64,000 nt of DNA from the NCBI RefSeq assembly GCF_019797745.1, contig NZ_VOSI01000005.1, positions 124,001 through 188,000 on the forward strand. The letters are read 5' to 3'. This document shows, in pieces, positions 4,019-63,009 of the stretch. The notes beneath the pieces are model-generated. The model was not told the origin of the DNA. It did no database searches and worked only from the letters and a program-made list of their open reading frames with translations. Source of the DNA: Edaphocola aurantiacus. GTDB taxonomy: Bacteria > Bacteroidota > Bacteroidia > Chitinophagales > Chitinophagaceae. A program made the translations under genes and the position numbers. Every line of letters starts with the position of its first letter. The stretch's first letter is position 1.

Positions 4019-4124
4019 ATTGAATATGCAATTATTGTATAATGATATGGATAGTATACCAACTGCGAATATACCCAGTTTTGGCCTGATTATAGCGAAG
4101 ACTACAGGTATATATCCGCAAAAT

Positions 4125-4162: not shown

Positions 4163-4186
4163 GGTAAATGTATTAGGACAATATAA

Positions 4187-14875: not shown

Positions 14876-15027
14876 CAATATTGTTTTTCGTGTATGGTTA
14901 CGAATAAGTGACAAGTTGGCAATGTTGCAGACAAAAAAGGTGCAATACTACCTGACACTATATAAGGTTCAATTAATATGCCAGAAATATTATGCTGAAA
15001 TAATTTCAGTATTTTGCCAGGCAGACC

Positions 15028-15035
15028 TATATTTG
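15028..15035 (+). promoter_or_regulatory. TAnnTTTG -7 element before the barrel protein gene
   Basis: TATATTTG matches the Bacteroidota -7 consensus. No TTG lies at the usual distance, so only half of the promoter is supported. Transcription would begin near 15042, favouring the ATG at 15054 as the start codon. Confidence 0.45.
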
Positions 15036-15053
15036 TGAAAAATGACAAACTAT

Positions 15054-15764: not shown

Positions 15765-15796
15765 TTATACAGGCATATTTTAAGGATATGCCTCAG

Positions 15797-15838
15797 GTGA
15801 TTTGTATGGCATAACCATGCCATACAAATCACTTTTTT
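15797..15838 (+). terminator. Perfect 16-bp intrinsic terminator
   Basis: Bases 15797-15812 pair exactly with 15817-15832 around an AACC loop, followed by seven T residues. It ends the barrel-protein transcript just before the def promoter. Confidence 0.92.
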
Positions 15839-15841
15839 TAT

Positions 15842-15849
15842 TATCTTTG
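15842..15849 (+). promoter_or_regulatory. -7 element of the def operon
   Basis: TATCTTTG matches TAnnTTTG and lies 29 bases before the def ATG, directly after the preceding terminator. A TTG at -33 is not apparent, because that region is the terminator stem. Confidence 0.55.
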
Positions 15850-15877
15850 CCCACTTATTATTAGAGCAATTTTTTAG

Positions 15878-16456
15878 ATGATTTTACCAATAGTAGCATA
15901 CGGACATCCGGTACTGAGAAAAATTAGTGCAGACATAAATGCGGATTACCCTGAACTGAAAAAATTGATTGCAGATATGTGGGAAACTATGTATCATAGC
16001 AATGGAGTAGGTATTGCCGCTCCGCAAATCAATAAAGCTATACGTTTATTCGTAGTAGATACTGACCAGATCGTAGAAGGATTTGATGATGAGGATAAAA
16101 AAGAATATCCTAATGAAAAATCGATCAAAAGTGTATTTATCAATGCACATGTAGTGCGTATGGAGGGTGATGAATGGGCTTATAATGAAGGCTGCCTGAG
16201 CATACCTAAAGTGCGTGAAGACGTAATGCGTCCATCGTCTATTACCCTGGCTTACCTGGATGAAAATTTTGAACCGCAGGAAAAAACATTCGATGGTATT
16301 ACTGCCCGTGTAATCATGCATGAGTATGATCATATCGATGGTAAATTATTTATCGATTATCTTGCGCCTATCAAAAAAAGACTGATCAAGAAGAAGTTAG
16401 ATGATATATCTAAAGGTAAGGTAAACATGGGCTACAGAATGATCTATCCTAAATAA
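15878..16456 (+). CDS. def: Peptide deformylase
   Basis: This 192-residue metalloenzyme removes the formyl group from the N-terminal Met of new proteins. All three family motifs are present: GVGIAAPQ (motif I), EGCLSIP with the metal-binding Cys (motif II) and HEYDHIDG with the two metal-binding His and the catalytic Glu (motif III). A short insertion rich in Asp/Glu/Lys (FDDEDKKEYPNEKS) between motifs I and II is usual in Bacteroidota. It is the first gene of a likely three-gene operon: 21 bases separate it from the membrane protein at 16478, which overlaps the next gene. Confidence 0.97.
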   Translation: MILPIVAYGHPVLRKISADINADYPELKKLIADMWETMYHSNGVGIAAPQINKAIRLFVVDTDQIVEGFDDEDKKEYPNEKSIKSVFINAHVVRMEGDEWAYNEGCLSIPKVREDVMRPSSITLAYLDENFEPQEKTFDGITARVIMHEYDHIDGKLFIDYLAPIKKRLIKKKLDDISKGKVNMGYRMIYPK

Positions 16457-16477
16457 CCGTATACCTGACACAAGATT

Positions 16478-16867
16478 ATGAAACAATTCATAAATAGATT
16501 TTTCAGCAGGCCACCAGTAATTTTTCCTTTGGTGGCTTGTTTTTTGCTCTTCATGGCAGTGAATGAGGTACAGCTGTTCCTGACGAATGGCGACACCGAT
16601 TTTATATATAAGATAAGACCCGCCATCATGATTCTGATGACCATATTCTGGATCGGCGCTACCTTATTCCAGAAGTGGGGTGCACTGGGCTTCCTGCTGC
16701 TGACGGCATTGACTGTATCGGTCTTTTACTTTGCCACCGGCATGGAGTATAAGCGTCTGCTGGATATCTTAATGTTATATATCCCATATGAAGGCAAGGT
16801 ATTGCCAGTGCCGGTAAATATCCTGTTCTCTTTTGCCATCCTGTACTATTACCGCAGAATGGAATGA
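16478..16867 (+). CDS. Small membrane protein in the def operon, unknown function
   Basis: The 129-residue protein has four hydrophobic segments (about 13-33, 47-62, 67-87 and 108-124) and basic ends (KQFINRFFSRPP, YYYRRME). I recognise no family. Its stop overlaps the start of the BtuF-like gene (ATGA at 16864-16867), indicating translational coupling, and it follows def by 21 bases. A role next to deformylation is not evident. Confidence 0.75.
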   Translation: MKQFINRFFSRPPVIFPLVACFLLFMAVNEVQLFLTNGDTDFIYKIRPAIMILMTIFWIGATLFQKWGALGFLLLTALTVSVFYFATGMEYKRLLDILMLYIPYEGKVLPVPVNILFSFAILYYYRRME

Positions 16868-17646
16868 GTTATCCGGTACAAGATATGATGGGGCAGGAGC
16901 TGCGACTGGAAGGTATTCCCAGTCGTATTGTATCTCTAGTTCCTTCACAGACAGAACTGTTATATGATCTTGGCCTGGAGGAGGAAGTGGTGGGGATCAC
17001 CAAATTCTGCATTCACCCCGAAGCCTGGTTTCGTTCTAAAGCGAGAGTTGGCGGTACCAAGACCGTACATTTCGACAGGGTGCAGGCACTGCAACCCGAT
17101 CTCATTATTGCCAATAAGGAAGAGAATGTGCAGGATCAGGTAGAAGCCCTGCGTACCATTGCCCCGGTATGGGTAAGTGATATCCGCAGCCCGGAAGATA
17201 ACCTGGAGATGATACGCCAGATTGGCCTTTTAACCGGAACCAGTCCTAAAGCGGAGGTGATCATACAACAGTTGCAGTCCGACTTTGCTACTTTGCCCTT
17301 AGCTAATTGCCTGGGCCGGAAAGTGGCTTATCTGATCTGGTATAATCCTATTATGGCAGCCGGGAACGATACCTTTATTCATGAAGTATTATCCCGCATT
17401 GGTTTTGAAAATGTACTTAAGAATGCACCGCGTTATCCCGAGCTGGATATGGAGGCATTACAGCAGCTACAGCCGGAATTATTATTGCTGAGTTCAGAGC
17501 CTTTTCCATTTGCCGAAAAACATATTAAAATATTTCAGGAACACCTGCCGGAAACAACAATCATGCTGGTAGACGGGGAGCTGTTCAGCTGGTATGGCAG
17601 TCGTATGCTCCATGCTGTGACATATTTTAACGAGTTATTTATTTAA
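16864..17646 (+). CDS. BtuF/FhuD-type metal-chelate binding protein without a signal peptide
   Basis: The 260-residue protein has the helical-backbone metal receptor fold (periplasmic binding protein class III). RIVSLVPSQTELLYDLGLEEEVVGIT opens the first lobe, VGGTKTVHFDRVQALQPDLIIANKEEN is the signature of the BtuF/cobalamin-binding group, and a long linker helix precedes the second lobe. Such proteins normally deliver vitamin B12 or siderophores to an ABC permease in the periplasm. No signal peptide or lipobox is visible and no ABC permease gene is nearby, so it may act in the cytoplasm or bind something else. Its start overlaps the previous gene by four bases, which fixes the N terminus. 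Confidence 0.8.
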   Translation: MSYPVQDMMGQELRLEGIPSRIVSLVPSQTELLYDLGLEEEVVGITKFCIHPEAWFRSKARVGGTKTVHFDRVQALQPDLIIANKEENVQDQVEALRTIAPVWVSDIRSPEDNLEMIRQIGLLTGTSPKAEVIIQQLQSDFATLPLANCLGRKVAYLIWYNPIMAAGNDTFIHEVLSRIGFENVLKNAPRYPELDMEALQQLQPELLLLSSEPFPFAEKHIKIFQEHLPETTIMLVDGELFSWYGSRMLHAVTYFNELFI

Positions 17647-48924: not shown

Positions 48925-51807
48925 TTAAGCTTCCATATAGCTTTCGATCGGCTCACAGGTACAGATCAGGTTACGATCTCCATGTGTATTGTTTACACGA
49001 CCCACAGTAGGCCAGAATTTAGCCTCTTTGATATATGGTAAAGGATAAACCGCTTCTTCTCTTGTATAGGCATGGTTCCACTCGCTGCTGATGACAACAT
49101 GCTGTGTATGCGGTGCATTTTTCAGCGGGTTGTCTGTAGTATCCATACGACCTTCTTCGATAGCTTTGATCTCTGCTCTGATCGATAACATTGCGTCACA
49201 GAAACGGTCCAGCTCACCTTTATCTTCACTTTCTGTAGGCTCGATCATGATCGTGCCCGGTACAGGGAAGCTCATAGTAGGTGCGTGGAAACCATAGTCC
49301 ATCAGACGTTTAGCTACATCTTCCGCTTCGATACCAGCCGTTTTCTTGAATGGTCTCAGGTCTACGATAAACTCGTGTGCACAAGTACCGTTAGAACCGG
49401 TATACAGGATCTCATATGCATCTTTCAGGCGTGCTTTCATGTAGTTCGCATTCAGGATGGCATATTGAGTAGCTGCTTTAGCACCGGTAGCACCCAGCAT
49501 ACGGATGTATGCATAAGAGATCAGCAGGATAGAAGCAGAACCGAATGGTGCAGCAGATACTGCATAGCTAGGCTTACCTTTCAGTTCGTTTTCGTTGATC
49601 ACATGGCTAGGCAGGAATGGGATCAGGTGTGCTGCCACACAGATCGGGCCTACACCCGGACCACCACCACCGTGAGGGATAGCGAAGGTTTTGTGCAGGT
49701 TAAGGTGACAAACGTCTGCTCCGATGAAGCCAGGAGCCGTCAGGCCAACCTGTGCATTCATATTCGCACCATCCATATATACTTGTCCGCCATTCTCGTG
49801 AATGATGCGGGTAATATCTTTAATACTTTCTTCGAAAATACCGTAAGTAGAAGGGTAGGTAATCATGATACCCGCCAGGTCATTCTTGTATTGTTCAGCC
49901 TTAGCTTTCAGGTCTTCTACATCGATATAACCGTTTTCATGTGCTTTTACCACAACCACTTTGTAGCCCGCCATTACTGCAGATGCAGGGTTGGTACCGT
50001 GTGCAGAGATCGGGATCAGCATGATGTTTCTGTTGCCTTCACCTCTGCTTTCGTGGTATGCGCGGATACACAGCAGACCTGCGTATTCACCATTCGCACC
50101 ACTGTTTGGCTGTACGCTGCAACCGGCAAATCCGGTGATTGTAGCCAGGTATGCTTCCAGTTCTTTAATGATGTGCAGGTAGCCCTGTGTTTGCTCTTTT
50201 GGCGCAAACGGGTGCATTTTGCTCCAGTGAGACCAGCTCAGAGGAATCATTTCAGTAGCAGCATTCAGCTTCATGGTACAGCTACCCAGAGAGATCATGC
50301 TCGTATTCAGGCTCAGATCTTTATTTTCCAGAGACTTGATATAACGCATCATCAGGGTTTCGCTGTGGTGGCTGTTAAAGTTAGTATGGGTCAGGTAGTC
50401 AGAAGTACGTACCAGGTTAGCAGGAATGTTTTCCATTAACTGATCGTCACTTGCATCGTAGCTTACCGCTTCTACAACATCGTTCAGGATGTTGATGATA
50501 TCAGCCAGGTCTTCAAATGAAGTTGTTTCATCTAAAGCAATGCTCACCATATGGTCGCCGATATAACGGAAGTTGATACCTGCTTTTTCTGCCTGGCTCT
50601 GGATGATCGCACCTTTGTTGGTTACAATAGTAACGGTATCAAAGAATGAATCAGATACCAGCTCGTGTCCGTTCTCTTTCAGTGCTTTAGCTAAAGTCTG
50701 AGCTAAGATGTGTACACGGGAAGCAATCGCTTTCAGGCCTTTAGGGCCGTGGAATACTGCATACATTGCAGCCATATTGGCCAGTAATGCCTGTGCAGTA
50801 CAAATATTAGAAGTTGCTTTTTCGCGTTTGATGTGCTGCTCACGGGTTTGTAAAGCCATACGTAAAGCACGGCCACCTTGTGCATCGATACTTACACCGA
50901 TGATACGACCCGGAATGCTGCGTTTGAACTCATCCTTACAAGAGAAGAATGCCGCGTGCGGACCACCGAATCCCAGGGGTACACCGAAACGCTGTGCAGA
51001 ACCTAAGGCTACATCAGCACCCAGCTCACCCGGAGGGGTTAATAAAGTCAGGGCCAGCAAATCCGTTGCGAAAGCAACATAACCGCCTGCACCATGTACT
51101 TTCTCAACGAAAGCAGTATAATCCTCAACAGAACCCAAACCATTAGGATACTGAACAATAGCTCCGAAGAACGTATCGTCGATCGCTACGGTTTTGTAAT
51201 CGCCGAATACCAGTTCGATACCAAGTGGAGTCGCTCTGGTGGTGATTACATCTTTCGTCTGAGGGAACGTATGTTTGTCAACGAAGAATTTTGGTTTTTC
51301 TGGATTGCTGACAGATTTGTTTGCCGCATGGAAAAACATAGACATTGCCTCTGCAGCAGCAGTAGACTCGTCCAGCAGGGAAGCGTTGGCAATAGGTAAT
51401 GCCGTCAGGTCGCTCACCATAGTCTGGTAGTTCAGTAAGCTCTCCAGGCGACCCTGAGAGATCTCAGCCTGGTATGGAGTATACTGTGTATACCAACCTG
51501 GATTTTCAAAAACGTTTCTTAAAATAACGGAAGGCGTTACGGTGTCGTAATATCCTTGTCCGATGTACGTTCTGAAGACTTTGTTTTTCAGGGAAACACT
51601 CTTCAGCATTCTTAAGTAATCTTGTTCGCTCAGCGCCGGCGGCAGGTTGAGATCCGTCGTCATGCGGATAGCAGAAGGGATGGTTTTGTCAATCAAAGCA
51701 TCTATGCTATCAATACCGATAGTAGCAAGCATTTCCTTAGTCTGAGCTGCATCAGGCCCAATATGACGGCCTTGAAACTCGTGCTGTAATTGCGAAAATA
51801 GATTCAT
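48925..51807 (-). CDS. gcvP: Glycine dehydrogenase (decarboxylating), P protein
   Basis: This is the 960-residue single-chain P protein of the glycine cleavage system, which decarboxylates glycine with PLP and transfers the aminomethyl group to the H protein. The N-terminal half ([14 protein letters not shown] onward) is the regulatory copy; the C-terminal half carries the PLP lysine in [17 protein letters not shown] (K706). The single-chain form is usual in Bacteroidota. gcvT and gcvH are not adjacent. The N terminus [17 protein letters not shown] fits the family. Confidence 0.97.
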
Positions 51808-51915: not shown

Positions 51916-51949
51916 TTGATGAAATTATACTTAAAATTATATATATTTG
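51916..51949 (+). promoter_or_regulatory. Promoter of the zinc-ribbon/HTH gene
   Basis: TTG (51916-51918) and TATATTTG (51942-51949) are 23 bases apart. A second -7-like element, TAGTTTTG, lies at 51961-51968. Either would serve the gene starting at 51983. The divergent gcvP start is at 51807. Confidence 0.55.
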
Positions 51950-51982
51950 CTAATTAGGTATAGTTTTGCTAAAATAGTATAT

Positions 51983-52402
51983 ATGAATCTCAAAAAGTGT
52001 CCCAAATGTGCCGGACAGCATATTGTCAAGAGTGGAATTGTGAAAGACCGGCAGCGGTTTTATTGTAAAGAATGCGCCTACTATTTTACCGTAGATAAGC
52101 TGGGTAAGAAGATCGATGATTATTATGTTACAAAGGCATTACAGCTGTATCTGGAGGGCCTGAGTTTCCGGGAGATTGAGCGTATTATAGGCGTGTCTCA
52201 TACCGCCATCAGCGGCTGGGTAAAAGAGTATGGCATTTCCCGTCCGGGACAGGCGCAATATCATCCCAGTTACAAGGTATTCAGCCAGGAAGAATTGGTG
52301 GAATTCGTACAGAATAATGAAAATCTTAAGGGAGCAGGCTTTATCATCACCGAGTTCGGAGATAAGTTTATGCTGATCAAATGGGAGCGGTTTAAGAAAT
52401 AA
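51983..52402 (+). CDS. Zinc-ribbon plus helix-turn-helix protein resembling IS1-type InsA; probable domesticated regulator
   Basis: The 139-residue protein has an N-terminal zinc ribbon (CPKC, then FYCKEC about 20 residues later) and a helix-turn-helix region (LSFREIERIIGVSHTAISGWVKEYGIS), the layout of InsA and of IS1/IS1595-type N-terminal domains. No DDE catalytic domain follows: the tail (about residues 95-139) is a short alpha/beta segment ending KWERFKK. There are no terminal repeats and no second transposase frame. Directly downstream on the same strand lie a porin, an MFS transporter, a two-component pair and two acyl-CoA synthetases, so it may be a domesticated DNA-binding regulator of that block. 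ATG at 51983 is chosen; the upstream extension lacks family features. Confidence 0.75.
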   Translation: MNLKKCPKCAGQHIVKSGIVKDRQRFYCKECAYYFTVDKLGKKIDDYYVTKALQLYLEGLSFREIERIIGVSHTAISGWVKEYGISRPGQAQYHPSYKVFSQEELVEFVQNNENLKGAGFIITEFGDKFMLIKWERFKK

Positions 52403-52499
52403 CTATACTTCTTTACAGAAATATATATCATTTTTCACTTTGTTGGATATTGTTTACAAATTCGTATTGCAATCGTATAACAATTTTAAACATAGAAAA

Positions 52500-53879
52500 A
52501 TGAAGAAAATAGCGCTCGCAATTTCCGGTTTGCTTCTGTCCCAAACCCTCTTTGCACAAGGATTTTCGGATTATGGCTCTGGTATCAAACTCAATGTAAA
52601 CCAGGACGGCTCTAAATATATCCGCTTCATTACCTGGAACCAGATCTGGCTCCGGAATACCCAGAACAACCCGGGTAGTGCCGTAGCCGGTGTGCCGGAA
52701 GATAATAGCTGGAGCATCGGCAACCGCCGCCTGCGCTTCCTTGCTATGGCACAGATCTCCAAACGGTTTACTATCGTTACCCATTTCGGGATCAATAACC
52801 AGACCTTCATCAATGGAGGCGCCAGCGGGACCTCCGGTACCGGTGGCTACGGACAGGGCAAAAAGCCGGGTATGTTCTTTCACGATGCCTGGAATGAATA
52901 CGCAGTAGTACAGCCCACCGAAAAATCAAAATTCAGTTTATCTATAGGGGCAGGTTTGCATTACTATACCGGTTTGTCCCGCGCGACAATGGCCTCTACA
53001 CTCAACTTCCTGCTTGTCGATGCGCAGATATTCAACTGGCCATTGATCGACAATTCAGACCAGTTTGCCCGCCAGATGGGTATCTTCGCTAAAGGTAAAT
53101 GGGATCGGATGGAGTACCGTTTCAGCGTCAATAAACCATTTGCCACCAACCTCAGCCCCGTAAATGCCACCAGCGATGCGACTGCTATTGCTGTAGATAA
53201 TAATGGGAAATCGAAATGGTCTCAGGCCGGTTATGTAGAATACCAGTTCTGCGATATCGAATCCAATGCACTGCCGTATAAAGTAGGCACTTATTTAGGG
53301 ACAAAGAAAATCTTCAATATAGGTGCCGGCTTTTACCGTCAGCCCGAAGGTACCCGCTCTATGGTGAATGGGGTAACGGCCAAACATGATATTACCTTGT
53401 TGTCTGTCGATGTATTTGCCGAATTGCCGGTAGGAGATAAGGCAAAGAATATGGCTATTAATGTATACGGTGTATATTATCATTACGATTTCGGTCCTAA
53501 TTACCTGCGCAACCTGGGTATTATGAATATAGCCGGAAATGATACGACCTATACAGGCAGCCGTGCCATAGCCGGTGCCGGCAACCTGCAGCCCACCATC
53601 GGAACCGGAAGCATTGCCCATGTACAGGCCGGATTTATGCTGCCTTGTAAGAACCCTGCAGCCAAACTGCGCATCCAGCCCTTCGGTGCCGTAACACATA
53701 AGCAGTTCGAAGCCCTGGAGCATGCCTCCACCCAGTTTGATATAGGTGCCAACTGGCTGATCAGCGGTCATCATGCCAAAATCTCTACCCAGTACAGCAC
53801 CCGTCCGGTATATACCTCTACTACCGCCAAACCTACGGCCAAAGGAGAGCTCACCGTTCAATTCCAAGTTTATCTATAA
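52500..53879 (+). CDS. Outer-membrane porin
   Basis: From the ATG at 52500 it is 459 residues: a signal peptide (KKIALAISGLLLSQTLFAQ) and then barrel strands with aromatic girdle residues (YIRFITWNQIWLRN, RRLRFLAMAQISKRFTIVTHFG, LTVQFQVYL at the end). Overall it resembles Bacteroidota porins of the OprP/phosphate-selective type, although the substrate cannot be read. It is followed 16 bases later by the MFS transporter, so porin and transporter form an outer- and inner-membrane pair. Position suggests uptake of a small carboxylate. Confidence 0.82.
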   Translation: MKKIALAISGLLLSQTLFAQGFSDYGSGIKLNVNQDGSKYIRFITWNQIWLRNTQNNPGSAVAGVPEDNSWSIGNRRLRFLAMAQISKRFTIVTHFGINNQTFINGGASGTSGTGGYGQGKKPGMFFHDAWNEYAVVQPTEKSKFSLSIGAGLHYYTGLSRATMASTLNFLLVDAQIFNWPLIDNSDQFARQMGIFAKGKWDRMEYRFSVNKPFATNLSPVNATSDATAIAVDNNGKSKWSQAGYVEYQFCDIESNALPYKVGTYLGTKKIFNIGAGFYRQPEGTRSMVNGVTAKHDITLLSVDVFAELPVGDKAKNMAINVYGVYYHYDFGPNYLRNLGIMNIAGNDTTYTGSRAIAGAGNLQPTIGTGSIAHVQAGFMLPCKNPAAKLRIQPFGAVTHKQFEALEHASTQFDIGANWLISGHHAKISTQYSTRPVYTSTTAKPTAKGELTVQFQVYL

Positions 53880-53895
53880 CCCCCCAACAGATTAT

Positions 53896-55452
53896 ATGAG
53901 TCAGCAATATTCCAAGGCGGAGACCCGCCAGCAAAATAAAACGATCTGGAGCGTGATCACCGCTTCCTCTTTAGGTACCCTCATTGAATGGTATGACTTC
54001 TATATATTTGGAAGTCTTGCAGTGGTACTGGCCGATAAGTTTTTCCCTTCTGCCAATCCTACTGCTGCCTTCCTGTCTACACTGGCCACTTTTGCTGCCG
54101 GTTTTGTTGTAAGACCTTTCGGTGCCTTATTCTTTGGCCGCCTGGGCGATATCATCGGTCGTAAATACACCTTCCTGGTTACCCTGCTCATTATGGGCGG
54201 CGCTACCTTCCTGATCGGCTGTATACCCAGTTATGAAACGATTGGTTTCCTGGCACCGGTACTGGTATTACTATTGCGCCTCTTACAGGGACTGGCCCTG
54301 GGCGGAGAGTATGGCGGTGCAGCAACTTATGTAGCCGAATATGCACAACCCAACCGTCGCGGTTACTGGACCTCCTGGATACAGACCACGGCTACGATCG
54401 GACTTTTTGTGTCGCTGATCGTGATCCTCATTACCAAGAAAACCTTATCTGCCGAGGCTTTTGATAGCTGGGGCTGGCGCGTTCCGTTCTGGATCTCTAT
54501 TTTAATGGTTGGGGTATCTTACATCATCCGTAAGAATATGAAGGAGTCTCCATTGTTTGCGAAAGCCAAGGAAGAAGGAAAGACTTCCAAGAACCCGCTG
54601 AAAGAAAGTTTCGGTAACCGCTTTAACTTCAAATTTGTGCTGCTGGCTTTGTTTGGTGCGGCTATGGGGCAGGGCGTGGTATGGTATACCGGCCAGTTCT
54701 ATGCCATGAGCTTCCTGCAGAAAGTAATGAACATAAACAGTGCCCAGGTAGATTCGCTGATGGCAATTGCCTTACTGATGGGTACGCCACTCTTCGTAGT
54801 GTTTGGTGCTTTATCGGACCGTTACGGACGCAAGGTGATTATGATGCTGGGTATGGCTATAGCCATTGTAAGCTACCGGCCTATATACAGTAAAATGTTT
54901 GCCACTACAGATATTACACAAAAGACACTGACCGAAAACGGGATTAGCCAAAAGGTTACAACAAAGGCCGATCCTAAACATGAGGGAGACCAGCTGATTA
55001 CCTGTAGCAGCGTCAGTACTTATACCGATGGCACCGAGTTGAAAAAGGATAGCGTGGTGCACATTCAGGCCGATCCTGCTGCCAAGCCTGTCGCGGCCAA
55101 AGTGACGAAATCTATTTCGGTTAATGATTCGGACAAATGGACACTGATCTTCCTGGTATTTATACAGGTAGTATTCGTAACCATGGTGTACGGCCCTATT
55201 GCAGCCTTCCTGGTAGAGATGTTCCCGATCCGCATCCGCTACACGTCCATGTCATTACCGTACCATATCGGCAATGGGGTATTCGGTGGATTGCTGCCTT
55301 TCGTAGCCACCTATTTTGTAAGCAGTGCACAGAAGGCGGGCAACCCGGACTGGTACCTGCAGGGTTTATGGTATCCGATCATTATTGCAGCCATCAGCCT
55401 GGTCATAGGGGTGCTGTATATTAATGGCAAGGATAAAAGTGTCAAAGATTAA
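53896..55452 (+). CDS. MHS-family MFS transporter with a periplasmic insertion
   Basis: The 518-residue inner-membrane symporter has the metabolite:H+ symporter (MHS) signatures: SSLGTLIEWYDFYIFGSLAVV at the first helix, GRLGDIIGRKYTF in loop 2-3, LLQGLALGGEYGGAATYVAEYA, and ALSDRYGRKV in loop 8-9. An extra ~85 residues (about 326-412, Thr/Lys/Asp-rich, with ITCSSVSTYTDGTELKKDS) interrupt it between helices 9 and 10, on the periplasmic face. MHS proteins carry organic acids such as alpha-ketoglutarate, citrate or shikimate. With the porin upstream and acyl-CoA synthetases downstream, a carboxylate substrate is likely. Confidence 0.9.
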   Translation: MSQQYSKAETRQQNKTIWSVITASSLGTLIEWYDFYIFGSLAVVLADKFFPSANPTAAFLSTLATFAAGFVVRPFGALFFGRLGDIIGRKYTFLVTLLIMGGATFLIGCIPSYETIGFLAPVLVLLLRLLQGLALGGEYGGAATYVAEYAQPNRRGYWTSWIQTTATIGLFVSLIVILITKKTLSAEAFDSWGWRVPFWISILMVGVSYIIRKNMKESPLFAKAKEEGKTSKNPLKESFGNRFNFKFVLLALFGAAMGQGVVWYTGQFYAMSFLQKVMNINSAQVDSLMAIALLMGTPLFVVFGALSDRYGRKVIMMLGMAIAIVSYRPIYSKMFATTDITQKTLTENGISQKVTTKADPKHEGDQLITCSSVSTYTDGTELKKDSVVHIQADPAAKPVAAKVTKSISVNDSDKWTLIFLVFIQVVFVTMVYGPIAAFLVEMFPIRIRYTSMSLPYHIGNGVFGGLLPFVATYFVSSAQKAGNPDWYLQGLWYPIIIAAISLVIGVLYINGKDKSVKD

Positions 55453-55485
55453 ACTACTCATTCATCATTCTAAAAATATTATATT

Positions 55486-55710
55486 ATGAACGCCATCAGA
55501 AAAGCATTCGGCATTGTATGGATATTACTGGCCTTAGCCGCAGGATACTTCTGTATTTTCCAGTTCGGACTGCCTAAGATCAGTTCCGGTAGCCAGGACG
55601 ACCTGGTATTCGGGATCATTATTTTATCCCTGCTTACCCCCATTATTGTAGGTGGTTTACTCATCTTCGGATACTATGCCCTGCAGGGTGAATATTCGCT
55701 GGAAAAGTAA
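55486..55710 (+). CDS. Small two-helix membrane protein (DUF6814-like) paired with the MFS transporter
   Basis: The 74-residue protein has two hydrophobic helices (about 8-28 and 42-65), a short loop with ISSGSQDD, and an end GYYALQGEYSLEK. It resembles the small proteins I recall as DUF6814, often found next to MFS transporters in this phylum; the name is from memory. It starts 33 bases after the transporter stop. It may be an accessory subunit of the transporter. A terminator hairpin follows at 55728. Confidence 0.7.
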   Translation: MNAIRKAFGIVWILLALAAGYFCIFQFGLPKISSGSQDDLVFGIIILSLLTPIIVGGLLIFGYYALQGEYSLEK

Positions 55711-55727
55711 ACCGGTAAATAAAAGAA

Positions 55728-55768
55728 AAAGCCGGGGAGTTCTAAAGATTTTTTCCCCGGCTTTCCCT
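55728..55768 (+). terminator. Hairpin between the transporter and sensor genes
   Basis: An 11-bp GC-rich stem (55728-55738 with 55754-55764); the T-tract after it is short (CTTTCCCTTGATTTTTG). It probably terminates partly, separating the uptake genes from the sensor genes. Confidence 0.65.
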
Positions 55769-55826
55769 TGATTTTTGTACATTTAAGAATTGAATCCGAA
55801 ACTGCCCGGATGGACTTTCCCAAAGG

Positions 55827-56021
55827 ATGAAAAAGAGACATGAACAGAAGCTGGTATTGGTGAGCATCATTATTTTTATACTGCTCAATGTACCCATCAT
55901 ACTGCTGTTTGATAAAGCGGATAAGGTTATCGGCATCCCCATGATCTATGCATATATTTTCATGGTATGGATAGCTTCTATAGCGATCACTTTTTTTGTT
56001 GTTAAAAGATATAATGAATAG
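55827..56021 (+). CDS. Small two-helix membrane protein overlapping the SSS-kinase gene
   Basis: The 64-residue protein has two helices (about 8-28 and 38-58) and basic ends (KKRHEQK, VKRYNE). The pattern IPMIYAYIFMVWIAS resembles small membrane proteins encoded just before sodium:solute symporters. Its last 8 bases overlap the start of the SSS-kinase gene (56014-56021), so the two are translationally coupled. It is probably a small subunit of the symporter-like sensor. Confidence 0.75.
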   Translation: MKKRHEQKLVLVSIIIFILLNVPIILLFDKADKVIGIPMIYAYIFMVWIASIAITFFVVKRYNE

Positions 56022-58680
56022 CGTCGGATTATTTATATTAGTATTACTGTATCTGGTATTGCTGTTTTTTATAGCCAGTGTAGCAGAGAAAAGCCGGAAG
56101 CCATTCTGGGTAAATAATCCGTATATCTACTCCTTGTCCATTGCGGTGTATTGCTCTGCCTGGACCTATTACGGCAGTATAGGTGTTGCCGCCACAAGAG
56201 GACTGGAATACCTGACGATCTATATTGGCCCCATCATTATCATACCTGCATGGATATTAATTAATGCCAAGATCATACGCATCTCCAGGGTGAATAAGAT
56301 CAGTAGTATTGCCGATTTTATCTCTCTGCGCTATGGCAACAGCCGTTCGCTGGGCGCATTGATCACCCTTATTTGTGCTGCTGCAATTGTGCCTTATATC
56401 GGCTTGCAGATCAAGGCTATATCAGATACCTTTCACCTGGTTTCGCATACGGCCAACAGTAATAATATATTCACCGATTCGGCTACTTATGTTGTTGCGC
56501 TGATCACGGTTTTCTCCTCTTATTACGGTACGAAATATGTCGATGCTTCTGAAAAGAGAGTGGGTGTCATCGCTGCCGTTGCTGCAGAATCTATCTTAAA
56601 GCTGATCTTCTTTTTAGTGCTTGGTATTTATGTTACCTATGGTGTCTTCAATGGCTGGGATGACCTGTACGCGCAGGCTTCAACCTTTTCCGACTTTGCC
56701 CATAAGAATAGTATAGGCGGCCTTACCGGTGCGCTGAACTGGTGCCTGATGAGTCTTTTGTCCATGTCAGCCATCTTCCTGCTGCCAAGACAGTTTCATA
56801 CTACTATTGTAGAAAACAGGAGAGAGAAGCACCTGCGTACGGCCTTATGGCTGGTGCCCTTGTACCTGTTGCTGATCAATATTTTTGTCTTCCCTGTTGC
56901 CTGGGGTGGCAATATTTTGTTCAAGGGTGCATCGGTCAATGCAGAGATGTATTCCATCCTGATCCCGCAAAAATTCGGACAGCATATCATTACCGTAATC
57001 GTGTTCTTAGGCGGACTCAGTGCCAGTGTATCTATGATCATCATCTCCAGCATAGCCCTGTCGATCATGATGTCTAATAACCTGATCATTCCTTACGGGA
57101 TACTGAACAAGATTAGTGAAAGCAATGTAAAAGATAATACGAAACTGATTGTTACGGTGCGCAAAATCGGCATTGCATTACTGATTGTCTGCGCTTACCT
57201 GTTTTATAAATTTTATATCAATGAGAATTCATTGTTCTCCGTAGGACTGATGTCTTTCGTGATTATTGCACAACTGGCACCATCTTTTTTCTCGGCCATC
57301 TTCTGGAAGCGTGGTTCCTACTGGGGTGCAGTCAGCGGCCTGGTCGCCGGGGTATTTATGTGTTACAAAATGCTCATTCTACCGGAGATGAGCGGGGCCA
57401 GGGTATCGCAATCCTTTTTTACGATCGATTATTTCGATCCTATGACCAATGCATTTTTCTGGAGCCTATTTGTGAATACCGTAATCTTTGCCCTTGTGTC
57501 TATATTCGGCAAAGGCAATTATACAGAGCGCAACTATGCCGAAATGTATGTCGATATTGATAAATACCTGAAGTACCAGGACAGTGCATTTGTATGGAAA
57601 GGCACTGCTGAAACAGAAGATATACGCCGCATCCTGATCCGCTTCCTGGGCGAGGAGAAGACAAAACAGGCATTACATATTTTTAATCAGAAATATAATA
57701 TCACTGATGAAGAAGATACCGCAGATGCCCGACTGATCAAGTTTTCGGAGAACCTGCTGGCGGGCCGTATCGGTACCGCATCGGCCAAGATCCTGATCGA
57801 GAGTGTGACGAAAGAAGATAAGATCAGCCTGCCGGAAGTGCTGGGTATTCTTGAAGAGTCGAAGCAGAATATATTACTGAACAAGCAGCTGACAGAGCAG
57901 TCGCAGAAACTGAAACAGCTATCGGCACAGTTGCAGCATGCCAATGCTTCGCTGCTGGAAAAGGACAAACAGAAAGATGAGTTCCTGGATGCAGTAGCAC
58001 ATGAGCTGCGTACACCGATTACGGCTATACGCGCGGCCGGAGAGCTGTTGCAGGATGATGAAGATATGCCGGAAGGCATACGCAGTCAGTTTCTCTACAA
58101 CATTATTTCAGAATCGGACCGGCTGAATGAACTGATCAATGATATCCTGTACCTTGATAAACTGGAGCATACCGAACAGGTATTGGAGATCGCGCAGTAT
58201 AACATCAAGAATACGATCAAGAAAGTTATACAGCCTATAGAACACCTGGTAGAGAAAGAGGAGATAAAGCTGGATGTGCGCCTGAACCTGACCAGGGAGT
58301 TCTTTTACTATGATGAAAAACGGATGATCCAGGTGATCAATAATCTGCTGGCAAATGCGATCAAATTCACTAAAGACAAGCATGGTGAAATCTTGTTGAG
58401 TGTATGCAACCCGCAGGAAAACCTGGAACTGAAAATATATAATTCGGGGAAACAGATACCGGATGATGAACTGGAAATGATCTTTGAGAAATTTTATCAG
58501 TCGCGCAACCAGAACCTTAAGAAGCCATTGGGCAGCGGGCTGGGCCTGTCGATCAGTAAAAAGATCATAGAAGCACACCATGGGTATATTTATGCTAAAA
58601 ATATACTGGATGGGGTGCAGTTCACTTTATCTGTTCCTCAAAACTACGACAAGTATGAAAAAAATAATTATTGCCGATGA
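56014..58680 (+). CDS. Sensor histidine kinase with sodium:solute symporter domain (CbrA/CrbS-like)
   Basis: The 888-residue protein fuses an SSS transporter domain (about residues 1-510, some 13 membrane helices, starting SVGLFILVLLYLVLL) to a STAC-type linker (about 555-610; DARLIKFSENLLAGRIGTASAKI). A coiled coil, a HisKA domain with the phospho-acceptor in DEFLDAVAHELRTP (H663) and a HATPase domain (NNLLANAIKFT near 776, GSGLGLSISKK near 840) follow. The layout is that of CbrA and CrbS; CrbS-CrbR governs acetyl-CoA synthetase expression in Vibrio and Pseudomonas. No PAS domain is seen. It overlaps its receiver gene by 26 bases. acs and prpE-like genes follow, which fits a carboxylate sensor. 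Confidence 0.93.
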   Translation: MNSVGLFILVLLYLVLLFFIASVAEKSRKPFWVNNPYIYSLSIAVYCSAWTYYGSIGVAATRGLEYLTIYIGPIIIIPAWILINAKIIRISRVNKISSIADFISLRYGNSRSLGALITLICAAAIVPYIGLQIKAISDTFHLVSHTANSNNIFTDSATYVVALITVFSSYYGTKYVDASEKRVGVIAAVAAESILKLIFFLVLGIYVTYGVFNGWDDLYAQASTFSDFAHKNSIGGLTGALNWCLMSLLSMSAIFLLPRQFHTTIVENRREKHLRTALWLVPLYLLLINIFVFPVAWGGNILFKGASVNAEMYSILIPQKFGQHIITVIVFLGGLSASVSMIIISSIALSIMMSNNLIIPYGILNKISESNVKDNTKLIVTVRKIGIALLIVCAYLFYKFYINENSLFSVGLMSFVIIAQLAPSFFSAIFWKRGSYWGAVSGLVAGVFMCYKMLILPEMSGARVSQSFFTIDYFDPMTNAFFWSLFVNTVIFALVSIFGKGNYTERNYAEMYVDIDKYLKYQDSAFVWKGTAETEDIRRILIRFLGEEKTKQALHIFNQKYNITDEEDTADARLIKFSENLLAGRIGTASAKILIESVTKEDKISLPEVLGILEESKQNILLNKQLTEQSQKLKQLSAQLQHANASLLEKDKQKDEFLDAVAHELRTPITAIRAAGELLQDDEDMPEGIRSQFLYNIISESDRLNELINDILYLDKLEHTEQVLEIAQYNIKNTIKKVIQPIEHLVEKEEIKLDVRLNLTREFFYYDEKRMIQVINNLLANAIKFTKDKHGEILLSVCNPQENLELKIYNSGKQIPDDELEMIFEKFYQSRNQNLKKPLGSGLGLSISKKIIEAHHGYIYAKNILDGVQFTLSVPQNYDKYEKNNYCR

Positions 58681-59017
58681 CGAACATAAAATACTCATGT
58701 CGCTGGAATATTCTTTCCGGAAGAGCGGCTATGAAGTGTTCATTGCACGTGATGGTAGTGAAGTAATGGATTTGCTGAAAACAGAAATACCGGCAGCCAT
58801 ACTGCTCGATATTATGATGCCTAACCTGGACGGCTATGAGACCCTGCAGCAGATCCGTGCAGAAGAGCAGCTGAAAGACTGTAAGATCGTAATTGTAAGT
58901 GCCAAGAATAACCCGGCCGATATACAGAAAGCCTATGACCTGGGCGCAGATGCTTATGTGACCAAACCATACTCCATTAAGAAATTATTACAGCAGGTGG
59001 ATGAACTGATTACCTGA
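58655..59017 (+). CDS. Single-domain response regulator (receiver only)
   Basis: The 120-residue protein consists of one receiver domain: acidic pocket in IIIADDEHKIL, phospho-acceptor in AILLDIMMPNLDGYE (D52), and conserved Lys in AYVTKPYS (K104). There is no output domain, unlike CrbR, which has a LuxR-type DNA-binding part. It overlaps the kinase gene by 26 bases, so they form a cognate pair. Output must run through another protein by phosphotransfer or binding. The zinc-ribbon protein at 51983 is one candidate, without direct evidence. Confidence 0.93.
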   Translation: MKKIIIADDEHKILMSLEYSFRKSGYEVFIARDGSEVMDLLKTEIPAAILLDIMMPNLDGYETLQQIRAEEQLKDCKIVIVSAKNNPADIQKAYDLGADAYVTKPYSIKKLLQQVDELIT

Positions 59018-59051
59018 GATAGATGATATAAACTATTAAATGTGAACGTAT

Positions 59052-60929
59052 ATGAATGCAGACCAACTATACAGAGACAGCATCGCAGATAAGGAATTGT
59101 TCTGGCAGCAACAGGCCGGGCAGCTGGACTGGTATACCTTTCCGGAGATCATATTGGGCAGCGATGAAACGGGCTACCCGCAATGGTTTCCCGATGGAAT
59201 GCTGAATATGTGTTACCTCGCGGTAGACCGGCATGTAGCAGAGGGTTACGGAGCGCAGGTTGCCGTCATATACGATTCACCGGTTACCGGACAACAACAA
59301 AAATATACATATGCCCAGGTGCAGCACGAGGTTGCGAAACTGGCCGGAGGCTTGCGGGGACTGGGTTTGAAGGAGGGCGATACAGCTATTATATACATGC
59401 CTATGATACCGCAATCCATGTTTGCCATGCTGGCCTGTGCCCGCATTGGTGTCATTCATTCTGTGGTATTTGGTGGTTTTGCACCGCATGAGCTATCGGT
59501 ACGCATAGATGATTGTAAGCCTAAAGTAATATTAACGGCCAGTGTAGGTATAGAAGGAAAGAAAACTATTCCGTACATGCCTATGGTTACAGAGGCTATA
59601 GCACTATCTGCTCATAAACCGGAACATATTGTTCATGTGGACCGTAAGCTTGCAGATATAAAGCCGGCAAAAGGGGTGATCGATTATGCCGCGCTGGTAG
59701 CGGCTTTCGCACCGGTGCCCTGCGTTCCGCTGCCTTCCACACATCCCTTGTATGTATTATATACTTCCGGTACAACAGGTAAGCCTAAAGGTATTATTCG
59801 TGACACCGGTGGTTATGCAACAGCATTACAGTTCTCCATGACGCATATCTATGGAGCGCAGCCAGGAGAGGTCTTCTGGGCCGCTTCGGATGTAGGCTGG
59901 GTAGTGGGGCATAGCTATATTGTATACGGACCATTGCTCAACCGCAATACCACTGTGGTCTTTGAGGGGAAGCCTATTATGACACCCGATGCTGGAACGT
60001 TCTGGCGCATCATCTCTGAACACCAGGTAAAGATCATGTTTACCGCACCCACAGCCATACGGGCGATTAAGAAAGAAGACCCTGAAGGCCTGCTGGTAAA
60101 GCAATATAACCTGTCCTGCCTGCGTACCCAATTTCTTGCAGGAGAGCGCTGCGATGTGGCCACTCTGGACTGGTATGAGCAACATGTAGGTGTGCCGGCT
60201 ATAGATCATTTCTGGCAGACAGAAAGTGGATGGCCGGTTTTAGGCCTGCAACGTGGTGTGGAGCAAGAGCCCATCATCAGGGCCGCTGCAGGTAAGCCTA
60301 TACCGGGTTACGACATCAGGGTATTTAACGATAATGGCTATGAGCTTGATGCACATCATGAAGGCTACCTGGTCATTAAACTACCATTGCCACCGGGTAC
60401 CTTAACTGGTTTGTGGAATGATCCTGAACGATTTAAGAGAGGATACCTGGAGCAGTTCCCCGGATATTATTTCTCCGGCGATGGGGTGATCCGTAATGAA
60501 GATGGTTATATGTTCATTACGGGCAGGGTGGACGATGTGATTAATGTGGCCGGCCACCGGATGTCTACTGCGGAGATGGAAGAAGTAGTAGCCGGTCAGC
60601 CGGAAGTTGCAGAATGTGCAGTAGTAGGTATAGAAGATACTTTAAAAGGACAGGTGCCTATGGCGCTTGTGGTCTTAAAACAAGGCGTAGCTGATCCTGG
60701 ACAAGTGCCTGCTGCTGTAGTACAATTGGTACGGGAAAAAATAGGTGCCGTGGCCTGTCTTAAAGAAGTGCTGGTCGTACAGCGCCTGCCCAAAACCAGG
60801 AGCGGTAAGATCCTGCGTAAACTGATCCGTACTATGATCGACGGAAAGGCATACCAGGTGCCCAGTACCATAGATGATCCTGCAATCATTGAAGAGCTGC
60901 AGGAGCAGTTTGCCCTGATCAAAAAGTAA
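59052..60929 (+). CDS. Acyl-CoA synthetase, PrpE-like (propionyl-CoA synthetase)
   Basis: The 625-residue AMP-forming ligase activates a short carboxylate with ATP and CoA. Motifs: N-terminal ACS domain (RDSIADKELFWQQQAGQLDWY), YTSGTTGKPKG (about 237-247), DHFWQTESGWPVLGL and the C-terminal catalytic Lys in RSGKILRK (K586), the usual site of acetylation. The QTESGWPV form of the A5 motif is the PrpE type, while acetyl-CoA synthetase has QTETGG. It begins 34 bases after the response regulator and is followed by acs after 30 bases. Acetate or propionate preference cannot be proven from sequence alone. Confidence 0.88.
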   Translation: MNADQLYRDSIADKELFWQQQAGQLDWYTFPEIILGSDETGYPQWFPDGMLNMCYLAVDRHVAEGYGAQVAVIYDSPVTGQQQKYTYAQVQHEVAKLAGGLRGLGLKEGDTAIIYMPMIPQSMFAMLACARIGVIHSVVFGGFAPHELSVRIDDCKPKVILTASVGIEGKKTIPYMPMVTEAIALSAHKPEHIVHVDRKLADIKPAKGVIDYAALVAAFAPVPCVPLPSTHPLYVLYTSGTTGKPKGIIRDTGGYATALQFSMTHIYGAQPGEVFWAASDVGWVVGHSYIVYGPLLNRNTTVVFEGKPIMTPDAGTFWRIISEHQVKIMFTAPTAIRAIKKEDPEGLLVKQYNLSCLRTQFLAGERCDVATLDWYEQHVGVPAIDHFWQTESGWPVLGLQRGVEQEPIIRAAAGKPIPGYDIRVFNDNGYELDAHHEGYLVIKLPLPPGTLTGLWNDPERFKRGYLEQFPGYYFSGDGVIRNEDGYMFITGRVDDVINVAGHRMSTAEMEEVVAGQPEVAECAVVGIEDTLKGQVPMALVVLKQGVADPGQVPAAVVQLVREKIGAVACLKEVLVVQRLPKTRSGKILRKLIRTMIDGKAYQVPSTIDDPAIIEELQEQFALIKK

Positions 60930-60959
60930 ATATTAAAACATTAAAATAAATAAGTAAAG

Positions 60960-62867
60960 ATGAAAAATTATGTAATCGAGAGCTTGCCGGACTATTTCAA
61001 ACAGTACAAGAAGTCAATCAAGAATCCGAAGAAATTCTGGGATAAGATTGCGGATGAAAACTTTGTCTGGTACCAGCGCTGGGAGAAGGTACTGAAGCAT
61101 GATATGAGTGAAGCAAAGATAGAATGGTTCCTGAATGCCAAGCTGAATATTACGAAGAACTGCATAGACCGGCACCTGAGCAGTCGCGGTAGTAAACATG
61201 CCATCATCTTTGAACCGAATAATCCTGAAGAGGCCACACAATATATCACGTACCAGGACTTGTACGACCGTGTAGGTAAAATGGCTAATGTACTGCGTGC
61301 CCAGGGGATAGGCAAAGGCGATCGTGTCTGTATTTACCTGCCTATGATTCCGGAACTGGCAGTGGCTATGCTGGCTTGTGCCCGCATCGGTGCCATACAT
61401 ACCGTGGTGTTTGCAGGTTTCTCTGCATCTGCCGTGGCTGCGCGCATTACCGATTGCGATTGTAAACTGGTCATCACTTCAGATGGCAGTTACCGCGGAG
61501 ATAAAAAGATAGACTTAAAAGGGATCGTAGATGAGGCATTAAAAACCTGTCCTTCGATAGGTAAAGTGCTGGTGGTAAAACGCACCGGTTCTGCGGTAAC
61601 GATGCAGGAAGGCCGTGATGAATGGATCGCTCCCTTGCTGGATGCGGCACCGGTAGATAATATACCCGAGATTATGGATTCTGAAGATCCGCTGTTTATC
61701 CTGTATACCTCCGGCTCTACCGGTAAGCCTAAGGGTATGATGCACAGCTGTGCGGGTTATATGGTGTATACCGCATATACGTTCAAGAATGTATTTAACT
61801 ATAAAGAAAATGACATCTACTGGTGTACGGCAGATATCGGCTGGATCACCGGTCACTCCTATATCGTATACGGACCTCTGCTGAATGGAGCCACGACTGT
61901 TATCTTTGAAGGGGTACCTTCTTATCCGCAGCCGGACCGCTTCTGGGAGGTGATTGAAAAGCATAAAGTAACACAGTTCTATACTGCACCGACCGCTATC
62001 CGCGCCCTGGCTAAGGAAAGCACGGAATGGGTAGAGAAGCATGACCTGTCTTCACTGAAAGTTATCGGATCAGTAGGTGAGCCGATCAATGACGAAGCAT
62101 GGCACTGGTATAATGATCATGTGGGCAGAAAGACCAGTCCGATTGTAGATACCTGGTGGCAGACCGAAACCGGTGGTATCCTTATTTCTCCTTTACCCTA
62201 TATTACCCCAACCAAGCCAACCTATGCCACATTGCCGCTGCCTGGTGTGCAACCGGTACTGATGGATGATAAACGTAATGAGATCACGGGTAACCAGGTA
62301 ACGGGCAATCTTTGTATCCGTTTTCCATGGCCGGGTATAGCCCGTACAATATGGGGCGATCATCAGCGTTATAAAGAAACTTATTTTACAGCCTTTCCGG
62401 GCAAATACTTTACCGGTGATGGTGCCTTACGTGATGAGGTAGGGTATTACCGCATTACCGGCAGGGTAGATGATGTGATCATTGTATCGGGTCATAACCT
62501 GGGTACGGCACCGATCGAAGACAGCATTAATGAGCATCCGGCAGTAGCAGAAAGCGCTATTGTAGGCTATCCGCACGATATTAAAGGTAATGCACTGTAT
62601 GGCTTTGTGATCCTGAAAGAAAGTGGTGAGGGACGCGATCGCGATAACCTCCGCAAAGAGATCAACCAGCTGATTTCAGAACAGATAGGGCCTATAGCTA
62701 AACTGGATAAAATACAGTTTGTATCCGGTCTGCCTAAGACCCGTTCCGGTAAGATCATGCGTCGTATCCTGCGCAAAATTGCCGAAGGTGATTTCAGTAA
62801 TTTCGGAGATATCTCTACCTTACTGAACCCTGAAATAGTGGAGGAGATTAAGAATGAGAAGCTGTAA
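60960..62867 (+). CDS. acs: Acetyl-CoA synthetase
   Basis: The 635-residue AMP-forming enzyme makes acetyl-CoA from acetate. N-terminal ACS segment, YTSGSTGKPKG at about 249-259, WWQTETGGILISPLP (the acetyl-CoA synthetase form of motif A5), GRVDDVIIVSGHNLGTAPIED, and the catalytic, acetylatable Lys in RSGKIMRR (K598). It is the last gene of the carboxylate block and ends at a perfect bidirectional terminator. Confidence 0.95.
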   Translation: MKNYVIESLPDYFKQYKKSIKNPKKFWDKIADENFVWYQRWEKVLKHDMSEAKIEWFLNAKLNITKNCIDRHLSSRGSKHAIIFEPNNPEEATQYITYQDLYDRVGKMANVLRAQGIGKGDRVCIYLPMIPELAVAMLACARIGAIHTVVFAGFSASAVAARITDCDCKLVITSDGSYRGDKKIDLKGIVDEALKTCPSIGKVLVVKRTGSAVTMQEGRDEWIAPLLDAAPVDNIPEIMDSEDPLFILYTSGSTGKPKGMMHSCAGYMVYTAYTFKNVFNYKENDIYWCTADIGWITGHSYIVYGPLLNGATTVIFEGVPSYPQPDRFWEVIEKHKVTQFYTAPTAIRALAKESTEWVEKHDLSSLKVIGSVGEPINDEAWHWYNDHVGRKTSPIVDTWWQTETGGILISPLPYITPTKPTYATLPLPGVQPVLMDDKRNEITGNQVTGNLCIRFPWPGIARTIWGDHQRYKETYFTAFPGKYFTGDGALRDEVGYYRITGRVDDVIIVSGHNLGTAPIEDSINEHPAVAESAIVGYPHDIKGNALYGFVILKESGEGRDRDNLRKEINQLISEQIGPIAKLDKIQFVSGLPKTRSGKIMRRILRKIAEGDFSNFGDISTLLNPEIVEEIKNEKL

Positions 62868-62927: not shown

Positions 62928-62970
62928 TAATGATTAATTGAGGATCAGCCAAAGTCAGAGCAATAAAATA

Positions 62971-63003
62971 CAAAAGAGCGGAACCTCAGGTTCCGCTCTT
63001 TTG
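62971..63003. terminator. Perfect bidirectional terminator after acs
   Basis: Two 16-base arms (62971-62986 and 62988-63003) are exact reverse complements, with T runs on both strands. It serves acs (+) and the lipoprotein gene at 63010 (-). Confidence 0.9.
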
Positions 63004-63009
63004 TATGTA

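Follow-up and report, generated by a model that had tools for sequence, protein, structure and literature searches.

Introduction

How does a transporter-fused sensor kinase reach its target genes when the response regulator beside it consists of a receiver domain only? This question is raised by a block of nine open reading frames at 51983-62867 of a stretch of 64,000 nucleotides (nt) from Edaphocola aurantiacus (assembly GCF_019797745.1, contig NZ_VOSI01000005.1, 124,001-188,000, forward strand), the whole of which is called the window here. All nine lie on the + strand and encode, in order, an InsA-like protein, a porin, an MHS symporter, a DUF6814 protein, a DUF3311-like protein, an SLC5-STAC sensor histidine kinase, the receiver, a PrpE-like synthetase and an acetyl-CoA synthetase (Acs). 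SLC5-STAC kinases combine transporter and sensor in one protein, and the studied examples that we found belong to Proteobacteria and work through regulators with a DNA-binding domain of their own. Many Bacteroidota hold the whole gene set in one place, with two interchangeable transporters (80 loci examined, at least 550 candidate relatives). We consider it probable that the block represents a conserved Bacteroidota locus for short-chain carboxylates in which the InsA-like protein provides the DNA-binding output.

The locus is a conserved unit

A sample of 148 genomes of the phylum was searched with the N-terminal 621 residues of the kinase (E <=0.001). Matches occurred in 38 genomes; 21 of them, the window included, were nearly full length and the others weak, and 20 kb (13.7 kb in one case) was fetched around the other 20 kinase loci. 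An InsA-like gene is present in the kinase locus in 10 of 10 loci from the window's class, counting the window, and in 0 of 11 from outside it. The InsA-like protein was matched in 16 of the 148 genomes at E <=0.001, but at E <1e-50 only in the 10 that carry it in the kinase locus, the rest being partial matches to transposase-like ribbons.

The gene set also occurs in families f1, f4, f5 and f9 of the sample, with some members replaced. The full order is retained in loci L034-L038, and L046 is complete except for a DUF6814 match. In L040 the porin-like protein is not matched by the porin of the window and reaches 27.6 bits against DcaP (cut-off 27), while in L039 and L041 a DUF4212 protein and a symporter (Pfam was run on the L039 pair) occupy the place otherwise held by the MHS symporter and the DUF6814 protein. 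L041 also carries PrpE-like and Acs sequences in a single frame of 1286 residues (13076-16936) with two AMP-binding stretches, possibly through a sequencing slip.

Outside the class, L042 has a comparable set that lacks InsA and is differently ordered: DUF3311, kinase, receiver, PAS protein, Acs, a protein of 409 residues, DUF4212 and SSF. The 409-residue protein has no Pfam match and is a porin candidate. The PAS protein between receiver and Acs (315 residues, 5910-6857) contains no DNA-binding domain according to Pfam. In L047-L053, likewise outside the class, the kinase is kept, the receiver is present in all but L053, and no matched acs lies within the fetched stretch.

A wider search of genome contigs with alignment A1, built from 9 of the 10 InsA proteins, returned at least 595 stretches, at least 550 of them relatives, and we examined the best 80 loci, which come from Flavobacterium, Kaistella, Chryseobacterium, Cloacibacterium and similar bacteria. 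The first matched gene behind insA is the porin in 79 of these 80. The exception is L105 from Kaistella haifensis (10405-11401), where porin, transporter and most of the kinase are gone and InsA, receiver, PrpE and Acs remain. A stretch resembling the kinase ATPase domain is left between InsA and the receiver, which suggests a deletion, and L105 was set aside as a true exception to synteny on this ground. Where 9 kb of flank or more was available, the DUF3311-like gene, kinase and receiver are present in 71 of 71 loci. The transporter in these 71 is of the MHS kind in 56, each time accompanied by DUF6814 (56/56), and an SSF symporter with DUF4212 at the same place in 15; for one symporter of the latter kind, in L195, the score with the VC_2705 model is 873 bits (cut-off 321). 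PrpE and Acs are both matched in 47 loci, PrpE alone in 13, where the 10-kb flank often stops, Acs alone in 10 and neither in one. That the transporters swap at the same position supports a shared function of the genes.

Among 121 genomes of the Flavobacterium-like genus to which genome G057 belongs, 46 contain the InsA-like protein (E 1e-20) and 46 contain the kinase (E 1e-60), with 45 in common; the assemblies of G336 (InsA only) and G353 (partial kinase only) are fragmented. Each of the 46 genomes holds a single InsA-like copy at E 1e-20 or better, situated in the kinase locus. Five genomes of the phylum sample from other genera of the window's family (G007, G033, G091, G115 and G126) contain neither InsA nor kinase, so the distribution of the locus is patchy. 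Judged by its gene order, the block is a conserved unit in Bacteroidota, and the synteny that a preliminary description of the window proposed as a check extends beyond close relatives.

A double repeat precedes the insA-like gene

In the 79 insA upstream sequences compared, conservation is higher over positions -36 to -1 than in the preceding sequence. TATATTT at -24 to -18 is retained in 75 to 79 of the 79 at each position, and a six-base core repeats with a period of 19 in 73, no other period from 17 to 21 being seen. Within the window's genome (3.69 Mb), only two sites match TTTGCTAAWTWRGTATA with 0 or 1 mismatch, both of them before insA; seven further sites have two mismatches, against 12 control matches. 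A block related to the motif follows directly on the insA stop codon in the window and in many other loci. The copy that lies there in the window, ahead of the porin gene, is degenerate and scores below the threshold. In L046 (GC content 0.60) an altered double repeat stands before insA, at a distance from the start codon that is about 32 nt greater, and the porin gene is preceded by a reversed copy. A -7-like box near repeat 1 occurs in 30 of the 79 upstream sequences, and since it is confined to these, the position of the insA promoter is a guess.

Further copies precede prpE and acs in relatives

A scan with a weight matrix made from the insA repeat found more copies upstream of prpE and acs, most of them in reverse orientation. 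Among genes preceded by a gap of 75 nt or more, 26 of 38 acs and 23 of 34 prpE genes have the core in their upstream sequence; for shorter gaps, which leave less space for a site, the counts are 1 of 21 and 0 of 28. A TAnnTTTAC box lies 30 nt past the motif in 22 acs and 21 prpE cases; the distance is 31 nt in three further acs cases, and 24 nt and 58 nt occur in one case each. In flavobacteria the -7 consensus reads TAnnTTTG at -12 to -5 (PMC9723704); if TAnnTTTAC is a variant of it, the motif would lie near -58 to -43.

A combined pattern (motif, 28-33 nt, TAnnTTTAC) yielded 21 sites in 15 of the 121 genomes of the G057 genus, against 0 for the control. All 21 stand directly before acs (10) or prpE (11), and the 15 genomes are all InsA-positive (15/46 versus 0/75 InsA-negative). 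Because the motif was derived from L084-L163, and these may share species with the 121 genomes, this test is not independent; presence and absence comparisons also ignore shared ancestry, and Fisher values are descriptive only. In G354 and G370 prpE and acs are separated by other genes (and sit on different contigs in G354), yet each of the two has its own site. In L185 the open frame starts 5' of the site when counted from its first start codon. Among the fetched kinase loci, the core occurs in 6 of 9 with InsA and 0 of 11 without, several of the latter being GC-rich. Our conclusions on the motif rest on the insA double repeat, on the pattern in the G057 genus (21 versus 0) and on the positions of the sites. 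The single-site motif was set aside as evidence on its own, being too weak (sites/controls: G017 5/6, G072 2/2, G314 2/1, G012 11/15, G095 7/5, G053 1/7). At the level of sequence, the motif that relatives share in front of their insA, porin, prpE and acs genes supports co-regulation of these genes.

The InsA-like protein as candidate regulator

The preliminary description had listed the InsA-like gene, which our searches confirm, and had given it no role; here its product becomes the candidate DNA-binding output. Against the IS1 transposase model NF033558 it scores 76.1 bits over residues 6-126, below the cut-off of 100, and against NF050000 it reaches 39.9 bits, above the cut-off of 28, as befits a protein with the zinc ribbon and helix-turn-helix of IS1. 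We found neither a catalytic (DDE) transposase part nor an overlapping insB frame in the gene, and the porin gene comes next. Copies from different families are 58-72% identical to that of the window, and 56 of 140 columns of A1 are invariant. An AlphaFold model shows the ribbon, three helices and a C-terminal alpha/beta part, with a predicted local distance difference test (pLDDT) value of 77. We propose this protein as the reader of the motif because no other gene of the block encodes a DNA-binding candidate, because its conservation is strong and because InsA of IS1 represses its own promoter (PMC12428005). Of all candidates it is the best suited to supply the DNA binding missing from the receiver, and the repeat beside its own start is consistent, by analogy, with autorepression of the InsA type.

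We envisage the following sequence of events. Porin and symporter would admit the acid, and the SLC5-STAC kinase, with its CbrX-like small subunit, would sense the acid or its transport and phosphorylate the receiver-only protein, while the PrpE-like and Acs enzymes would form the acyl-CoA. The InsA-like protein may bind the two direct repeats by its own start, giving autoregulation as for InsA of IS1, and may also bind single copies before the porin gene and, in relatives, before stand-alone prpE and acs genes. There the sites lie about 30 nt upstream of the -7-like box, a position that would suit an activator. The placement of the sites thus suggests autorepression at its own start and activation upstream of the -7-like boxes; both the binding and its sign we infer from sequence.

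How the signal would pass from receiver to InsA-like protein is the least supported step, and its basis is co-inheritance and the lack of another output in the block. We tentatively consider a split response regulator, a possibility that we hold as somewhat doubtful, in which receiver and DNA-binding half are separate proteins and the latter was recruited from an IS1-type InsA. The phosphorylated receiver would contact the InsA-like protein, perhaps at the conserved C-terminal part, and convert it from repressing its own gene to activating acs, prpE and porin. If this holds true, a transporter-fused kinase governs carboxylate use through a tamed transposon repressor. The locus makes testable a receiver-only route to DNA, the passage from transposase repressor to regulator of metabolism, and the stimulus sensed by the kinase's transporter domain.

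Alternatively, the motif might be read by an unlinked regulator, for instance of the LuxR or CRP type, with the InsA-like protein serving another role and the locus still being a carboxylate unit. CrbR of Pseudomonas is a LuxR-type regulator (PMC5715377), and binding of the motif by InsA is a prediction. Further support for this alternative comes from three sites of a high-GC genus. In G072, a member of this genus, two sites match with at most one mismatch (control two), one at insA and one before an MFS gene whose product scores 326 bits with the L-lactate transporter model SfMCT (cut-off 320). An exact pattern, made after the sites of this genus had been seen, gave nine sites in 7 of 61 genomes and none for the control: two lie before insA, four (in four genomes) before SfMCT-like genes and three between genes that we take, from reading their sequences by eye, to be holB-like and hemC-like. 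The InsA search covered two of these seven genomes (G442, G448, G469, G495 and G500 lay outside it), so that a reader other than InsA would fit the three holB/hemC-like sites. An unlinked reader is nevertheless unlikely in our judgement: all 15 genomes with the combined pattern are InsA-positive, the double motif adjoins the start codon of insA itself, and the conservation of the InsA-like protein across families is not that of a decaying fragment.

Two features of the high-GC loci deserve mention in their own right. In L200 an SfMCT-type lactate/monocarboxylate transporter (3043-4512) has the motif upstream, as in three more genomes of the genus, and is a candidate unlinked target; these four copies count in favour of our main interpretation. 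In L201, L202 and L206 the exact copy at 1501-1517 lies between the presumed holB-like and hemC-like genes, with no carboxylate link. The preliminary description had proposed, as a possibility, that the block is one functional, self-contained system; synteny and the transporter swap support the common function, and "self-contained" needs qualifying because the motif also stands before an unlinked transporter gene in the high-GC genus.

Several observations weigh against the InsA-like protein as regulator of the whole locus. In the window the motif is found only before insA and, weakly, before the porin gene, with none at kinase, receiver, prpE or acs. In relatives the core is absent from 12 of 38 long-gap acs and 11 of 34 long-gap prpE upstream sequences, and from 3 of 9 InsA-positive loci (L035, L037 and L041, whose repeats deviate from it). 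Class-wide, the combined pattern occurred in 1 of 198 genomes, the InsA-positive G057, and the control also gave one; for the single-site motif, the control gave as many matches or more in 4 of 6 other genomes. Three of the nine exact high-GC sites adjoin the unrelated holB-like and hemC-like genes. The InsA model had no match in the PDB at E <=0.001, the best hits being Lrp-like (E 8e-3, template modelling (TM) value about 0.26). Finally, InsA and kinase co-occur too tightly for presence and absence within the genus to tell which protein reads the motif.

Substrate

The substrate would be acetate and probably also propionate, to judge from the enzymes encoded. The genome of the window has matches to methylmalonyl-CoA mutase and no match to isocitrate lyase, which makes growth on acetate alone doubtful, a further point against our interpretation; the enzyme matches fit acetate oxidation together with propionate use better than growth on acetate only. 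The main substrate might instead be a different monocarboxylate, for example lactate or pyruvate, in which case Acs and PrpE would handle overflow acids. The missing isocitrate lyase match, the motif copies ahead of the SfMCT lactate-type transporter, and related SLC5-STAC kinases that act on histidine (CbrA) or in pyruvate use (RpuS) (PMC13022988, PMC9100948) would agree with such a role. We regard it as quite unlikely, since the block encodes no enzymes other than Acs and the PrpE-like synthetase, and the methylmalonyl-CoA mutase matches fit propionate use.

Gene assignments and transcription units

The features of the block are listed in Table 1.

Table 1. Genes, hairpins and motif copies of the carboxylate locus (window coordinates)
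Feature	Coordinates	Strand	Remarks
Direct repeat copy 1, TTTGCTAATTAGGTATA, candidate operator	51946-51962	+	Overlaps -7-like box TATATTTG at 51942-51949
Direct repeat copy 2, TTTGCTAAAATAGTATA	51965-51981	+	19 nt after copy 1; ends one base 5' of the insA start codon
InsA-like protein, candidate regulator	51983-52402	+	Zinc ribbon with four Cys, helix-turn-helix, conserved C-terminal part
Degenerate motif copy ahead of porin, TATACTTCTTTACAGAAATATATA	52404-52427		Right behind insA stop; read by eye
Outer-membrane porin-like protein	52500-53879	+	Weak porin_ExtI profile match; no Pfam match
MHS-type metabolite/H+ symporter	53896-55452	+	TIGR00883 E 1e-106, 357 bits, below cut-off 443
DUF6814 small membrane protein	55486-55710	+	Pfam
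Hairpin, 12-bp stem, terminator-like	55728-55764	+	Between DUF6814 and DUF3311-like genes (116-nt gap)
DUF3311-like small membrane protein, CbrX-like by position	55827-56021	+	Score below Pfam cut-off
SLC5-STAC sensor histidine kinase	56014-58680	+	Start ATG 56014; Pfam HisKA and HATPase_c; profile match to PDB 10ED
Receiver-only response regulator, 120 residues	58655-59017	+	Response_reg over residues 4-115; start overlaps kinase 3' end
PrpE-like acyl-CoA synthetase	59052-60929	+	Best model propionate--CoA ligase, 722.7 bits (cut-off 955); PrpE model TIGR02316, 685.3 bits (curated cut-off 827.4)
Acetyl-CoA synthetase (Acs)	60960-62867	+	TIGR02188 952.6 bits, above cut-off 724.95
Palindromic hairpin, 18 bp, terminator-like, 3' end of block	62968-63006		

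The kinase belongs to the SLC5/STAC histidine kinases by its profile: alignment A2 (14 of 21 kinases) matches PDB entry 10ED, the CbrX-CbrA SLC5-STAC structure (PMC13022988), with E = 1.9e-105 over profile positions 5-619, and Pfam recognises HisKA and HATPase_c. The preliminary assignment as an SSS-STAC-histidine kinase is upheld by these matches and finds no backing in the Pfam SSF model, which does not match the kinase; a search of its own genome with SSF gave three matches, the kinase not among them. The kinase ends after HATPase_c, with no fused receiver domain, and the receiver is encoded by a separate gene. The other preliminary assignments read in the same light. Pfam shows a receiver domain only in the 120-residue regulator, as described, and the Acs score secures the acs gene; for the PrpE-like synthetase propionate--CoA ligase is the best model, and the score stays under both propionate model cut-offs.

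The DUF3311-like proteins (12 of 18 in alignment A3) have two hydrophobic stretches, judged by eye, and gave no match to PDB chains at E 10, a negative of limited weight for such very short proteins. An overlap of exactly 8 nt between the end of the DUF3311-like gene and the kinase ATG recurs in all 74 loci compared, that of the window among them, as counted with a script that chose the ATG nearest the stop.

Successive intergenic gaps measure 97, 16, 33, 116, -8, -26, 34 and 30 nt. Gaps mostly below 40 nt had been described, and 6 of 8 are so; those of 97 and 116 nt remain, and because the latter holds the terminator-like hairpin, the block is probably not a single transcript. The hairpin at 55728-55764 probably divides it into an uptake unit and a sensing/activation unit. 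In 59 of 74 loci the interval between the transporter genes and the DUF3311-like gene holds a stem of 9 bp or more with a T-rich stretch behind it, against 0.5 expected from shuffles. Folding of the stretch around the hairpin alone gave z -2.0, with 5 of 200 shuffles equally good. A terminator scan of the block found 12 against 8.7 expected, its loop limit of 8 missing this hairpin with its 13-nt loop, and a sigma-70 promoter scan found no excess (25 versus 24.5 expected). In the window, InsA would act on the uptake unit, and on the remaining genes only through read-through past the hairpin, because the synthetase genes, placed behind kinase and receiver, have no motif in front of them. The hairpin, and the lack of a matched acs in the fetched stretches of L047-L053, would suit a cluster of convenience in which kinase and receiver control other targets and the synthetases are adjacent housekeeping genes, which the synteny in 71 of 71 loci with enough flank, the transporter swap in place and the shared motif render very improbable.

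On the - strand, a gene of 960 residues (48925-51807) diverges from insA and shares its upstream region; from its sequence alone, we take it to be glycine dehydrogenase-like.

Comparison with known systems

A literature search, with subscription papers mostly outside its reach, returned no account of this locus or of an InsA-like regulator of it. Within that search, the association of an SLC5-STAC kinase with carboxylate genes is known, and neither the separate receiver nor the InsA-like candidate output nor the candidate operator appeared.

CrbS/CrbR (MxtR/ErdR), the acetate two-component system of Vibrio and Pseudomonas with acetate-dependent control of acs, likewise links an SLC5-STAC kinase to acs and an acetate-type transporter, and has a conserved motif upstream of the acs promoter, the ACTU at -52 to -36 in P. 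fluorescens (PMC5715377). In contrast, our block has a kinase lacking the C-terminal receiver domain of that system, a receiver that is separate from the kinase and devoid of a DNA-binding domain, no LuxR-type regulator beside the kinase (the search covered the block, not the rest of the genome), and porin, transporter, prpE and acs grouped behind an InsA-like gene. The motif is unlike the ACTU, and an ACTU-like pattern built from the printed sites is absent from all 59 acs and all 62 prpE upstream sequences.

In the RpuS/RpuR pyruvate system of Sinorhizobium fredii, an SLC5-STAC kinase adjoins a symporter operon with a DUF3311 protein, and an imperfect direct repeat is required for activation (PMC9100948). 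Its regulator, however, is of the LuxR type, its DUF3311 gene lies within the symporter operon rather than ahead of the kinase gene, and the accessible part of that account does not mention synthetases (PMC9100948).

The arrangement at the kinase start recalls CbrX-CbrA of Pseudomonas putida, where the gene for a small membrane protein lies upstream of an SLC5-STAC kinase gene and overlaps its start; CbrX is translationally coupled to the kinase and stays bound to CbrA in the structure (PMC6591292, PMC13022988). The DUF3311-like proteins gave no sequence match to solved chains, and they are too short for this to count as a firm difference; CbrB is a sigma-54 type activator with its own DNA-binding domain (PMC13022988), whereas the receiver of our block has none.

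InsA of IS1, a known autorepressor (PMC12428005), shares with the protein of the block the zinc ribbon, the helix-turn-helix and the match to IS1 models. The protein of the block differs in being single-copy, in its extra conserved C-terminal part and in having no InsB frame, and its candidate sites are direct repeats and single copies rather than the ends of an element.

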